From the NCBI GenBank assembly GCA_016234935.1, contig JACRNL010000001.1, positions 124,001 through 188,000 of the forward strand: a stretch of 64,000 nucleotides of DNA, written 5' to 3'. The notes beneath the pieces are model-generated. The model was not told the DNA's origin, did not search any database, and was given only the letters and a program-made list of their open reading frames with translations. This DNA comes from Deltaproteobacteria bacterium (GTDB lineage Bacteria; Desulfobacterota; GWC2-55-46). How positions within the stretch are numbered: the stretch's first letter is position 1; the number at the start of each line of letters is the position of its first letter. This document shows, piece by piece, positions 852 to 62,547 of the stretch. A program made the translations under genes and the position numbers.

Positions 852-1775
852 ATGCAACTACCCGAAAACAAATCAAAAAAACAACTCTTATCAAAAAATG
901 CCGACCCCCGATTAAAACGTTCGAGGGCGAGTATCACCAGACTAACCGGCCTGATGGCGAGTCTGCGCGCCCCTGACGGCTGTCCCTGGGACAGGGAGCA
1001 GACGCTTGAAAGCCTCGCCCCTTTCATAATCGAAGAGGCCTATGAGGTCGTCTCGGCAATTGATTCAGGGTCAATGGACGAGATAAAAGACGAACTTGGC
1101 GATCTGCTATTTCAGATAATCTTCGCAAGCCAAATAGCCGAAGAAAAAAAATGTTTCACCCTTGCATCAGTCATTGATGGAACTGCCCGGAAGATGACCC
1201 GCCGGCATCCCCATGTCTTCGGCGACAGAGAGGCAGAGAAGGCAAAGACCCCGAAGGATGTTTTAAAAAGATGGGACCAAATAAAAAACGCGGAAAAGAT
1301 GGAAGAAAAGCAATCCAAGGGGTCAAGCCCCCTCAGGAGGTCGAGCCCCTCCAGGGTGGGGTATCTCTCCGGCGTGCCGGAGGCCATGCCCGCGCTCCTC
1401 AGGGCGCATAAAATAAGCAAAAAGGCCGCTAAAACAGGCTTTGATTGGAAAAACGCCGCGCAGGTGTTTGAAAAGGTAGACGAGGAGATGGCCGAGTTCA
1501 AGCAGGCTCTCAAAAAGAAAAACAGGCGCAACATGGAAGAGGAAATGGGCGATCTGCTCTTTACAATCGTAAACGTATCACGGTTCATGGAGATAAACCC
1601 TGAAGAGGCGCTGCGTAAAACCATCGGGAAGTTCATCACGCGCTTTCACTACATAGAAAGCAAAGCGGCCGCAAAAGGACGCGAGCTATCCGCTCTGACG
1701 CTTGGCGAGATGGATGCGCTATGGGAAGAGGCCAAGAAAACTAAAAGAAAAAAATCAATCAAAACAGACCATTAA
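852..1775 (+). CDS. mazG: Nucleoside triphosphate pyrophosphohydrolase MazG, with in-frame palindromic insert
   Basis: MazG hydrolyses (d)NTPs to monophosphates, and the cytoplasmic enzyme lowers aberrant nucleotides and ppGpp. Two MazG domains are visible. The first (about residues 35-120) has GCPWDREQT and EEAYEVV with ELGDLLFQ. The second (about 195-295) has DEEMAEF and EEMGDLLF. Between them, residues 156-170 (SKGSSPLRRSSPSRV) are encoded by the 9-nt-periodic palindromic repeat at 1317-1360, so the linker grew by insertion. The gene follows mobA by 6 bp and has no clear Shine-Dalgarno. The N-terminal 30 residues are poorly supported and a later start is possible. Confidence 0.9.
   Translation: MQLPENKSKKQLLSKNADPRLKRSRASITRLTGLMASLRAPDGCPWDREQTLESLAPFIIEEAYEVVSAIDSGSMDEIKDELGDLLFQIIFASQIAEEKKCFTLASVIDGTARKMTRRHPHVFGDREAEKAKTPKDVLKRWDQIKNAEKMEEKQSKGSSPLRRSSPSRVGYLSGVPEAMPALLRAHKISKKAAKTGFDWKNAAQVFEKVDEEMAEFKQALKKKNRRNMEEEMGDLLFTIVNVSRFMEINPEEALRKTIGKFITRFHYIESKAAAKGRELSALTLGEMDALWEEAKKTKRKKSIKTDH
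1317..1360. repeat. 9-nt-modular palindromic repeat inside mazG
   Basis: The segment reads as successive 9-nt blocks GGGGTCAAG, CCCCCTCAG, GAGGTCGAG and CCCCTCCAG, then GGTGGGG. It is in frame and adds about 15 residues to the MazG interdomain linker. It is more diverged than other copies, so it is probably an older insertion. Confidence 0.75.
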
Positions 1776-1964
1776 AAAGATGTCCCCACAGGGTGTTGAT
1801 AACGTGTTGACAACATACCCGATGCAAAACAAAGGCAAGCCGCTTTCAATGGGGTTCGTGCAAGTTGCTTATTTTTTAAGCATAGGTTTTAATTTTAAAA
1901 TCAATAAGTTATGCCTCTCTTAAGAGATTATCATTTAACCGTTCCCATCTGACTATCTAAACTA

Positions 1965-3542
1965 TCACTTCCGCAAAAATGTCTTTAAAAACGGGAGTTC
2001 CGGCGACCTGAAAAGGCGGGATGTTCCGATATAAGTTAAAACGCCGATGGCGACGGTAAAGGCTATAAAGACAGGCTTCAAAGCCAGGCCCATCCCAGCG
2101 TAGCCAAGCTTTGCGACCATGACATAGACGACAACACCGGTTACGAGGGAAGCCGCGGAGCTTTTCAACGCGGATGCGAGGATAGATCTCCCGCCGAAGG
2201 TCCCGAACCTGCGCTTAAGCATTATAAAAAGCCCGAACATATTAACAAAGCTCGACAGCGATGTCGCAAGGGCAAGCCCGCCGTACTGCAGGGGCGGGGC
2301 GAGCAGTATGCACAGTATCACGTTCACTACAAACGAAGCCAATGCCATCCAAACAGGTGTAACCGTATCCTTTAAGGAATAAAAGACCGCTGAAAGAAGC
2401 CTGCAGGCCGACACCGGCACGAGGCCGATGGCATAAAAGCTCAACGCGGCTGACGTAGCCGACGCGGCGCCCAGATTGAACTGTCCGCGCCTGAAGAGCG
2501 TCTCTACTATCGGAAAACTAAGCACCATAAGGCCGACGGTGGCCGGAATAGTCACGAAATTGACTATGCGCAGGGCAAAGGCGAGCGACCTTTTAAATGC
2601 ATCCCACTCCCCCTTTGCCATATGCTCGGAAAGGCTCGGCAGAACCGCCGTGGCCATGGCAACGCTGAAGACGCCGATGGGCAGTTCCATCACCCTTCCG
2701 GCGTAATAGAGGTACGAAACACTGCCGCCTTCGAGCTTCGATGCAAACCAGAGCGTTACGAAAATATTGAGCTGATACACCCCCACCCCGAATGCCGCCG
2801 GCAGCATCAGGAGTAATATCTTCTTTATCGCAGGGTCTGAAAATTTAAAAAGCGGTCTTATGGAGATGCCGTATTTCCTTAAAAAGGGTATCTGCACCAC
2901 GAACTGCAAAAGGCCGCCGAGCAGCACGCCTATGGAAAGCGCATAGACCGATTTTACAAAAAATGGCGCGATAACGAATATCGCAAAGATAATCGAAAGG
3001 TTGAAAAAGACAGGCGCGATGGCAGGGGCGGCAAAATGCTTAAATGAATTAAGCACCCCCATTGCTATCGCCATAAGGCCGACAAAGATCATATACGGGA
3101 ACATCAGCTTTGTCAGGTTTACGGTAACCGCGAACTTCTCCGGGTCTGACGCAAACCCGGGCGACATCAGCCACACCAGCTCCTTTGAAAATATTATTCC
3201 CAAAACAGACAGGACGATGAGTATCAGCGTAAACAGCGTCAGGACGCTCGCGACGAGCGCGTTCGCCCCTTGAAGGGGTTCAGCCCCGTGCCTGTCCCGC
3301 GCGAGGCGTTCTTGCGTAAATACAGGTATGAAAGACGACGTCAGCGCGCCCTCGCCCAAAAGGCGTCTCAGGAGGTTGGCTATCCTGAAGGCCACGAAAA
3401 AAGCGTCCGAATAGATACCCGCCCCGAATACGTAGGCGATACACGCGTCTCTCGCGTAACCCAAAACCCTGCTTATCACCGTGGCTATGCCCACGACGGA
3501 AGCGGATTTGGTTATCTTATGCTCATGGCTTGTTGTCGGCAT
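1965..3542 (-). CDS. murJ: Lipid II flippase MurJ
   Basis: MurJ is an inner-membrane MOP-family transporter that flips lipid II for peptidoglycan synthesis. The 525-residue protein has about 14 hydrophobic segments and the family opening SASVVGIATVISRVLGYARD, with later markers LLRRLLGEGALTSSFIPVF and RRGQFN. Residues 86-92 (GAEPLQG, in the loop after the second helix) come from the palindromic repeat at 3266-3287. The gene is divergent from rpsT and convergent with mazG. Start at ATG 3542 is followed directly by the conserved N-terminus. Confidence 0.93.
   Translation of the reverse strand: MPTTSHEHKITKSASVVGIATVISRVLGYARDACIAYVFGAGIYSDAFFVAFRIANLLRRLLGEGALTSSFIPVFTQERLARDRHGAEPLQGANALVASVLTLFTLILIVLSVLGIIFSKELVWLMSPGFASDPEKFAVTVNLTKLMFPYMIFVGLMAIAMGVLNSFKHFAAPAIAPVFFNLSIIFAIFVIAPFFVKSVYALSIGVLLGGLLQFVVQIPFLRKYGISIRPLFKFSDPAIKKILLLMLPAAFGVGVYQLNIFVTLWFASKLEGGSVSYLYYAGRVMELPIGVFSVAMATAVLPSLSEHMAKGEWDAFKRSLAFALRIVNFVTIPATVGLMVLSFPIVETLFRRGQFNLGAASATSAALSFYAIGLVPVSACRLLSAVFYSLKDTVTPVWMALASFVVNVILCILLAPPLQYGGLALATSLSSFVNMFGLFIMLKRRFGTFGGRSILASALKSSAASLVTGVVVYVMVAKLGYAGMGLALKPVFIAFTVAIGVLTYIGTSRLFRSPELPFLKTFLRK
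3266..3287. repeat. Palindromic repeat inside murJ
   Basis: CCCCTTGAAGGGG runs into a GGGGTTCAGCCCC palindrome. In frame on the minus strand it encodes GAEPLQG in a hydrophilic MurJ loop. Confidence 0.9.
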
Positions 3543-3575
3543 GGGGTTAAACTATCTCCAATTCCATAACACAAA

Positions 3576-3641
3576 GTAGCGCGAGGCTTCTACCGAGCTG
3601 CCTTTAAGCTGAAAAACAGCGAGGCTAAAGCCTCGCACTAC
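3576..3641. repeat. Inverted repeat element (GTAGCGCGAGGC ends)
   Basis: The 66-bp element has arms GTAGCGCGAGGCTT and AAGCCTCGCACTAC and sits in the murJ-rpsT divergent spacer. A degenerate relative lies at 5371-5411, between holA and lptE. It encodes no protein and looks like a small non-autonomous hairpin repeat. Confidence 0.65.
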
Positions 3642-3668
3642 GAATCTTGCAGGCAGGCAACTAAAACC

Positions 3669-3697
3669 TTGACAAGACACGTTGAATCGAATAAAAT
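3669..3697 (+). promoter_or_regulatory. Sigma-70-type promoter for rpsT
   Basis: TTGACA at 3669-3674 and TAAAAT at 3692-3697 are separated by 17 bp. The leader to rpsT is then roughly 90 nt. Confidence 0.7.
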
Positions 3698-62264: not shown

Positions 62265-62377
62265 AAGCTCCGCCTGTCTCCCATGCGCGTCAGACGCAGG
62301 AGGTGACCTGTCAAACATATTCTATGCCGCACTCGCGCTTTTAGCAAGCGACTGAAGAAAGATTCTGCCGCGGCAAA

Positions 62378-62410
62378 TAAAAAAAGGGTTACGGGAAAAC
62401 CCGTAACCCT
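62378..62410 (-). terminator. Terminator of tRNA-Pro
   Basis: On the minus strand AGGGTTACGGG pairs with CCCGTAACCCT around a 4-nt loop and a T-run follows. Confidence 0.85.
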
Positions 62411-62420
62411 TTGTTTTTGT

Positions 62421-62497
62421 TGGTCGGGGCGAGAGGATTCGAACCTCCGACCCCCGCGTCCCGAACGCGGTGCTCTACCAAGCTGAGCCACGCCCCG
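62421..62497 (-). tRNA. tRNA-Pro (CGG)
   Basis: A 77-nt cloverleaf folds on the minus strand with CCA encoded. The acceptor is CGGGGCG/CGCCCCG, the anticodon loop TTCGGGA gives CGG and the T-loop is TTCGAAT. Confidence 0.95.
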
Positions 62498-62532
62498 ACT
62501 GAATAACTCGCACTAAGGAGGACAAATCTCCG

Positions 62533-62547
62533 CCCCTTGAAGGGGTG
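62533..62547. repeat. Half copy of the palindromic repeat
   Basis: CCCCTTGAAGGGGTG lies between the tRNA-Pro promoter and gene, so it would be in the precursor leader. Confidence 0.7.

Follow-up and report, generated by a model that had tools for sequence, protein, structure and literature searches.

Eighteen-nucleotide palindromic arrays in a deltaproteobacterial genome follow a tetranucleotide rewrite rule that may be target-templated

Introduction

Miniature inverted-repeat transposable elements (MITEs) are short, non-coding and come with a target duplication. Repetitive extragenic palindromic (REP) sequences are high-copy palindromes of 20 to 40 bp; in the excerpted text of PMC3733652, they are mostly extragenic and bear GTAG or CGTC tags, and the CGTC REPs are without a dedicated transposase. 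Rickettsia palindromic elements (RPEs) are portrayed in an extract of PMC10969869 as palindromic DNA lying in frame in genes of unrelated function, about 150 bp long and with a family-specific sequence. Quasipalindrome template switching, according to part of PMC8794818, writes reverse-complement copies of nearby sequence, and the mitochondria of Nematomorpha, according to a passage of PMC6649704, hold inverted repeats in protein genes, with arms of up to 284 bp that encode conserved parts. Here, we examine the short palindromic arrays of a 64,000-nt stretch of Deltaproteobacteria bacterium (Desulfobacterota, GWC2-55-46; assembly GCA_016234935.1, contig JACRNL010000001.1, positions 124,001 to 188,000), called the window below, which is C7:124001-188000 of a 2.15-Mb genome in 15 contigs (G000). 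An earlier, sequence-only reading of the window took the arrays for a single palindromic element that had spread in the manner of RPEs. We find instead that their letters follow the target, that their step is 18 nt and that their growth looks nested; the arrays are the product of a rewrite rule, not one dispersed sequence.

Results

Abundance and distribution of the arrays

Direct repeats are present where the sequence-only reading had placed them. Its count by eye of about 25 copies compares with a periodic scorer, which returns 26 arrays at a score of at least 12 (control-free at that score) and 20 at a score of at least 14. At the stricter score, 127 arrays are found per 448 kb of the genome, against none in two order-3 Markov copies. 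Genome-wide, GGGGYTSARCCCCYTSARGGGG with up to three mismatches has 344 + 389 = 733 matches, overlapping matches inside one array being counted separately, and the reversed control has none; the copy number is far above chance. A laxer score gives 204 arrays in an 831-kb sample (39% of the genome), from which the whole genome holds roughly 500 by extrapolation.

The repeat is confined almost entirely to this genome among the relatives examined, which include no same-genus genome. GGGGYTSARCCCCYTSARGGGG with up to one mismatch occurs 439 times here, never in 29 same-family genomes and once in the other 67 relatives; GGGGYTGARCCCCYTCARGGGG, also with up to one mismatch, occurs 325 times here, and among 394 other genomes of the phylum three have one match each; the 13-mer GGGGYTSARCCCC has 280 sites here and 0 to 3 in each of the 29 family genomes. 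A 40-mer array found no match in plasmids and phages with the low-complexity filter on, and viral contigs gave no exact match.

The product rule

The aligned core profile reads GGGG YTGAR CCCC YTCAR GGGG, and a core of this type, with a TGA linker (+) followed by a TCA linker (-), is present in 82 of the 127 arrays; no conserved flanking tag appears in the aligned profile of these 82 cores. In general form, with X' standing for the reverse complement of a tetramer X, the rule converts X into X·YTGAR·X'·YTCAR·X and adds 18 bp per step. The constant letters are only TGA and TCA plus mostly Y/R edges; the other inserted letters vary with the target tetramer. The two end bases of a linker are complementary (C..G or T..A) in 192 cases against 16 mixed ones, and in 130 against 8 in a hold-out of 400 kb fetched once the rules had been fixed, so that each 13-mer is palindromic around a central TGA or TCA. 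When block and spacer lengths are scanned, blocks of 4 with spacers of 5 stand out (244, versus 11 in one Markov copy). Other lengths stay near the control: with block 4 they reach no more than roughly double its count, and block 5 gives 11 versus 3 and 9 versus 2 with spacers 4 and 7. The rule with any X found nothing in 400 kb of stretches from relatives, whose counts in the length scan are dominated by masked N runs. The single-stranded DNA folding energy of a single unit is ordinary (z -0.3 to 0.4), and that of 40-mers has z -1.7.

The sequence-only reading had the blocks as GGGG or CCCC, which do predominate but do not exhaust the set. A strict search for X, its reverse complement and X in the 831 kb returns GGGG 121 times, AGGG 20 times and CAGG, GGAG and GAGG once each; GGGT, GGGC and a second context of CAGG were also seen. 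In a test that demanded equal outer tetramers, TGA plus TCA and paired edges, leaving the middle unconstrained, sites with an outer tetramer other than GGGG had the reverse complement of X in the middle in 20 of 21 cases and, in the hold-out, in 6 of 8. The three misses among these 29 sites comprise one GGGG middle and two that are off by a single base. Sites with outer GGGG followed the rule in 69/71 cases (hold-out, 39/42).

These figures bear directly on the idea of a fixed mobile hairpin, in which a 14-nt YTGAR-CCCC-YTCAR would enter G-rich tetramers with a 4-bp target-site duplication and variant middles would later be matched to their flanks by quasipalindrome template switching. An identical 18-nt product at GGGG is what such an element would leave, one site (CCAC-TTGAA-GGGG-TTCAA-CCAC) looks uncorrected, and template switching is described, in part of PMC8794818, as capable of creating and repairing perfect stems. 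Against this, non-GGGG outer tetramers carry the matching middle in 26 of 29 cases and a GGGG middle in one, four of five strict events in a second genome (see below) are GGGC or GCGG, and no transposase candidate was found among the families and sample searched. We regard the fixed hairpin as possible but rather unlikely.

Microhomology copying would dispense with a new enzyme altogether: while DNA is being replicated, a nascent end in X would pair with the X of an array elsewhere, copy 18 nt and return to its own template. The 4-nt homology would explain the anchor and also the separate AGGG and GGGG families, which hit matching variants of one host repeat. In that repeat (...CG-X-CAGGC...), 11 AGGG copies have a CCCT middle and 3 GGGG copies have CCCC, a list that was seeded on exact pairing and is therefore an illustration and no test. 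However, the rare tetramers (CAGG, GAGG, GGAG, GGGT and GGGC, none with more than three sites or fewer than one in 1.23 Mb, and GCGG in the second genome) have no abundant donor with the same X in the sequence searched, and both the dominant step of 18 or 36 and the first array are left unexplained. To us this route appears quite unlikely.

Empty and filled sites

Within this genome, many arrays are embedded in dispersed repeats of other kinds, which reveals empty sites at nucleotide resolution. The filled site CCCGTGAA-GGGG-TTGAACCCCCTCAG-GGGG-GAGGAG and the empty site CCCGTGAA-GGGG-GAGGAG differ by no mismatch over the 26 nt compared, and a pair differing by 36 nt likewise shows none over 26 nt. 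Fifteen arrays supplied 60 pairs, of which 20 differ in length by 18 nt, 8 by 36 and 7 by -18 or -36 (the other copy being longer); 11 come within 1 nt of a multiple of 18, 3 show no difference and 11 fit no multiple. In many of the 54 candidate empty sites an array simply matches itself, and the examples cited were chosen by eye. The tetramer occurs once in the empty site, so that filling amounts to a 4-bp target-site duplication, and the TGA and TCA linkers are absent from the empty sites compared.

The sequence-only reading had growth by any number of 9-nt modules; the step is instead 18 nt, or two such modules. Single 9-nt events were considered and set aside: 59 of 73 one-linker arrays retain 6 to 8 of the 9 bases of the next module, versus 6 of 73 at random, so most one-linker arrays are decayed 18-nt events; the other 14 do not retain that many. 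A motif arisen by point mutation and kept by selection, like HIP1 or a protein-binding or uptake site, would suit the high copy number and the dyad symmetry. Orthologues and intragenomic empty sites show a net insertion of 18 or 36 nt, however, and a point-mutation origin is therefore refuted; we give this explanation next to no credence, and a later function is possible.

Further dispersed repeats are present. One of about 130 bp (CAGGCTGCTCAAAAAGCCCC...) lies at 24720-24848 and 34186-34393 of the window and in many copies in the sample, of which that at C5 82363 bears an 18-nt insertion. A repeat with CACGCGAGGGCAGGC is found at C5 12117, 45554, 121825-121932, 196373 and elsewhere (L033-L042), often by CATTCGAGGACATG stretches, and CACGCGAGGGCAGG has 11 empty copies in 448 kb.

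Nesting

If X is rewritten as X(+)X'(-)X at every event, further events inside an array should yield balanced brackets of linker signs; the array at 10113..10152, for instance, reads GGGG TTGAA CCCC CTGAG GGGG CTCAG CCCC TTCAA GGGG, or ++--. Two-linker arrays are +- in 75/85 cases (hold-out, 29/35) and four-linker arrays ++-- or +-+- in 13/16 (hold-out, 7/10). The sole six-linker array is +-++-- and its only counterpart in the hold-out is +++---, both balanced (1/1 each). The misses number 10 and 3 (hold-out, 6 and 3), and decay likely accounts for some of them; the order +-+- could also come from tandem slippage by 18 nt. Judged from the order of their linkers, longer arrays look nested, growing as if by re-insertion.

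Arrays of the window and insertions in protein genes

The arrays of the window, with gene strands in brackets, are as follows.

1316..1356: decayed array, in frame in mazG (852-1775, +), peptide KGSSPLRRSSPSR
3266..3287: X=CCCC event in murJ (1965-3542, -), peptide GAEPLQ
3924..3945: X=GGGG event in rpsT (3792-4079, +), peptide GVEPLQ; right block GCGG
4271..4292: X=CCCC event in the spacer adjoining gene 4297-5292 (-)
6281..6302: two-linker array (++) in leuS (5936-8527, -), peptide GLSPLRG
8710..8740: three-linker array, spacer
10113..10152: nested ++-- event, spacer
24574..24595: X=CCCC event in the spacer past gene 23206-24558
35294..35315: X=GGGG event, spacer
38491..38512: X=AGGG event, AGGG TTGAA CCCT TTCAA AGGG, spacer
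43784..43805: X=GGGG event close to the N-terminus of prmA (42890-43840, -)
44756..44794: array in lolA (44364-45047, -), peptide of 12 residues
45065..45104: nested ++-- array across the 3' end of ftsK (45097-47304, -), which terminates within the array
46617..46661: four-linker array in ftsK, peptide PPEGVQPLEGAEPP
46968..46989: X=CCCC event in the N-terminal part of ftsK, peptide GVEPLQG
47331..47361: three-linker array, spacer
48332..48362: three-linker array, spacer
48404..48425: decayed event, spacer
50109..50130: X=CCCC event in small protein gene 49759-50175 (-), peptide GVEPLQG
50183..50204: array with variant blocks CCCC/GTGG/CCAC, the adjacent GTGG and CCAC being complementary
58413..58431: partial array, spacer
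58479..58500: X=ACCC (GGGT) event, ACCC TTGAA GGGT GTCAC ACCC
62213..62234: X=CCTG (CAGG) event, CCTG CTGAG CAGG TTCAA CCTG, inside open reading frame 60939-62318 (-)
62528..62546: partial array, spacer

The window also holds cobalamin and S-adenosylmethionine (SAM) riboswitches above gathering scores, at 16833-17027 (+) and 13027-13144 (-), respectively.

Seven of the genes for which the sequence-only reading gave in-frame copies (mazG, murJ, rpsT, leuS, prmA, lolA and ftsK) do carry them; the names come from NCBIfam matches, of which prmA and ftsK score under the curated cut-off. By the same naming, DnaE, GlnD, SelB and aconitase carry inserts too, and the DnaE gene (DNA polymerase III alpha; C7 31500-35078, L044) has three: one of AGGG type, one with four linkers and one decayed. 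For P0008, a small protein of secreted type, NCBIfam gives no match at E 1e-10.

The extra residues are absent from orthologues of relatives, which speaks against the refuting condition named by the sequence-only reading, namely the same residues at the same place in orthologues from unrelated bacteria. Counted as family loci, of which two for LolA overlap and to which some genomes contribute two, exactly six extra residues are present relative to 22/22 loci for RpsT, 19/19 for MurJ, 20/20 for PrmA and 25/25 for the AGGG event of DnaE, and 12 relative to 20/20 loci for LolA. The decayed DnaE site has six extra residues against 21 of 24 loci and 7 to 8 against the remainder. At the four-linker site of DnaE (5 to 15 extra residues over 25 loci) and in LeuS (a net difference of -1 to +10 amino acids over 23 loci), the figures spread because both stretches vary in length among relatives. 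MazG has 14 extra residues against the sole relative covered.

Placement was said to be always at loops, linkers or termini. Structure models of two proteins bear this out for LolA, where strands 75-80 and 99-103 are joined by a low-confidence loop that contains the insert, but not entirely for RpsT, where residues 45-50 form the turn after helix 1 and also the first residues of helix 2.

The 126 arrays with at least two linkers in the 831 kb divide into 55 that are intragenic, 61 that are intergenic and 10 that straddle or touch a gene edge, the coding share of this sequence being 85% by a simple gene caller. Relative to the remaining GGGG/CCCC tetramers, arrays stand at 55:4125 in genes and 71:1235 outside, a fourfold depletion in genes that we read as selection. 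The reading frames of the 55 in-gene arrays are GYT-SAR in 34 and YTS-ARC in 21; none has a TSA codon, as expected because TGA would terminate the gene. Of 127 arrays, 16 are edge arrays, and some genes end inside an array. A preference for the coding strand was considered and is unconvincing: X is GGGG on that strand in 40/55 arrays, but GGGG sites already outnumber CCCC sites there (2559:1566). In one intergenic array, the second GGGG coincides with the start of a tRNA-Ala (L040 9797-9891), and since the tetramer is duplicated, the 5' end of the tRNA is preserved. Altogether, the results support a lineage-specific, in-frame insertion into essential genes at a copy number far above chance.

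Occurrence in other genomes

A scan of named genomes returned at least two loci, among them a contig of "Ca. Proendomicrobium guianensium" and a Streptomyces locus (L031) that may be a chance match. The former (G441) is a termite-gut Endomicrobia metagenome-assembled genome (MAG) of about 1.0 Mb, in which five strict sites fit the rule.

GGGC-TTGAA-GCCC-TTCAA-GGGC
GGGC-TTGAA-GCCC-CTCAG-GGGC
GGGC-CTGAG-GCCC-CTCAG-GGGC
GCGG-CTGAG-CCGC-TTCAA-GCGG, in leuS
a GGGG array

A GTGAC/ATCAT pair adjoins one of these strict sites, and one imperfect AGGG-like site is also present. With free linkers, the construction shows no overall enrichment in 258 kb of this MAG (12 versus 18), so the case stands on its few exact sites. 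At the GCGG event in LeuS, the WIGKS-TTRPD segment has 35 residues against 29 in the window genome, a gain of six, and it has 29 in 14 of 25 relative loci, those that the script could match. "Ca. Proendomicrobium" is assigned to the Endomicrobiaceae, phylum Elusimicrobiota, in the excerpt available of PMC11257099, which would place it in a different phylum from the window genome. None of its 118 relatives is shared with the phylum sample of the window, a comparison valid only if labels are reused. A relative of the MAG (G482) has 17 copies of the GCGG event, and all 17, once fetched, lie within one multicopy repeat; they therefore probably represent a single event. The proteins common to the genome sample and the 258 kb of Proendomicrobium offered no obvious agent among the best 25 of 94 matches.

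Separately, a genome of the same phylum as the window has three overlapping near-matches with GATCAG/CTGATC-like linkers (G200:C46:736-775; L178, L181, L184), which may be a related array.

Discussion

Starting from what is seen directly (the product, its 18-nt step, the empty sites, the match of X' to X, the bracket order and the presence in frame), we favour, with moderate confidence, target-templated insertion by an enzyme system over both the fixed mobile hairpin and microhomology copying. The target would be a tetramer X, by far mostly GGGG/CCCC, and the product L-X-nTGAn'-X'-mTCAm'-X-R, in which X is duplicated and one inverted copy is placed between TGA and TCA linkers with paired edges (n:n' and m:m'). 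A 4-nt staggered break might leave ends that each gain a short YTGA 3' extension; each extended end could then fold back as a triloop hairpin (X-Y-TGA-R-X') and copy X, and the two ends would join via their 4-nt complementary X'/X tails. Such fold-back copying and joining would give the exact product with n and m independent. With a step of 18 nt, two of the three frames stay open, which makes insertions tolerable in essential proteins, and the third meets TGA; new arrays would in turn supply fresh GGGG/CCCC targets and so grow by nesting.

Several observations weigh against target-templated insertion. Every X seen is G-rich, the site at C3a 6143 has CCAC outside and GGGG inside, and a single dispersed repeat houses 11 of the 16 simple AGGG events, which may thus be copies of just one. 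Templating could be mimicked by a fixed GGGG element whose palindrome was later repaired, or by copying between arrays with the same X. The edge bases, moreover, tend to avoid lengthening the duplicated tetramer, a bias not predicted by the model: m' is mostly unlike the base before X (42:5) and n unlike the base after X (39:9), and the avoidance holds in 9/9 nested arrays. In the hold-out it is 17:3 for m' (p=0.003) and 13:6 for n (p=0.17), with 3/4 and 2/4 in nested arrays. Direct repeats are 4 nt long in 42 cases, 5 in 14 and 6 in none (hold-out, 16, 7 and 1), and one reading is that the avoidance reflects loss of unstable 5- and 6-nt direct repeats. Templating of the edge bases by the target flanks was rejected, as the relation is one of avoidance and not of identity, significant in the hold-out for the m' half only.

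To the same side of the balance belongs the agent: no enzyme or linker template was found in the families and sample searched. The transposase searches covered the families PF01797 and rve. The Y1/RAYT (REP-associated tyrosine transposase) family PF01797, the REP-type enzyme that the sequence-only reading had suggested looking for, has no match in the genome in a search that was positive in 5 of 14 controls. Three rve matches are without a second copy in the 831-kb sample and without a G-rich X-N-TGA...TCA-N-X pair within 350 nt. An IS3-like donor was likewise discarded, the rve loci having two non-G-rich X pairs at L217 and none at L218 and L219 and being single-copy in the sample. The IS3-like rve genes on C12 (L217, L218) lie in short open frames. 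The longest repeat in the sample is 519 bp at 81% identity, and none resembles an active insertion sequence (IS).

The same search bears on a further explanation, that the arrays are excision footprints of a transposon with TGA...TCA ends, which would leave hairpin-opened, P-nucleotide-like flanks. By analogy with hAT and RAG chemistry, a hairpin footprint is consistent with the TGA/TCA ends, the 4-bp duplication and the palindromes with odd centres to either side. However, the 831-kb sample contains no repeat over 519 aligned bases and none that is IS-like by length, and a full-length element with TGA...TCA ends was not seen; this origin strikes us as improbable.

We consider the chances evenly balanced that the arrays reflect an undescribed genome-writing activity, one that inserts 18 bp at tetranucleotides, recurs on its own products and acts in at least two distant lineages on differing tetramers. 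No published description of an 18-nt target-copying rule was found in the literature searched, a search from which subscription journals were mostly outside scope. If such an activity exists, it would add six residues at a time to essential proteins, and an insert computed from its target, with no element to carry it, would give indels and protein-length evolution a new source. It also opens to test how RpsT, DnaE, LolA and SelB accommodate six-residue additions. The precise product lets enzymologists infer the enzyme behind it, and the same rule in an Endomicrobia MAG makes the agent searchable by comparison of gene content.

The arrays share traits with each of the known systems outlined above. 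Like MITEs, they show a 4-bp target-site duplication; unlike them, they total 18 bp, contain an inverted copy of the target and have no cognate transposase among PF01797 and rve. As for terminal inverted repeats shared with an autonomous element, the sampled 39% of the genome holds no long repeat of IS type, and the three rve loci have no G-rich X-N-TGA...TCA-N-X ends. The inverted repeats in protein genes recall the coding palindromes of Nematomorpha, but the residues here are extra and absent from orthologues. Short, high-copy palindromes are common to REP sequences and bacterial interspersed mosaic elements (BIMEs), but the arrays differ from the REP/RAYT system in that 82 cores show no conserved flanking tag, 55 of 126 arrays are intragenic and PF01797 is without a match. 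As in quasipalindrome mutation, the product holds a reverse-complement copy of nearby sequence, but the linkers are absent from empty sites, the copy is of 4 nt and the step is 18 nt. Finally, palindromic insertion in frame in genes of unrelated function is what RPEs also display, whereas the arrays, judged against the description of RPEs, gain 18 bp at each step, have letters that depend on the target and show apparently nested growth in place of a fixed family sequence of about 150 bp. The arrays thus depart from RPE, from REP/RAYT and from quasipalindrome mutation in at least one tested feature each.

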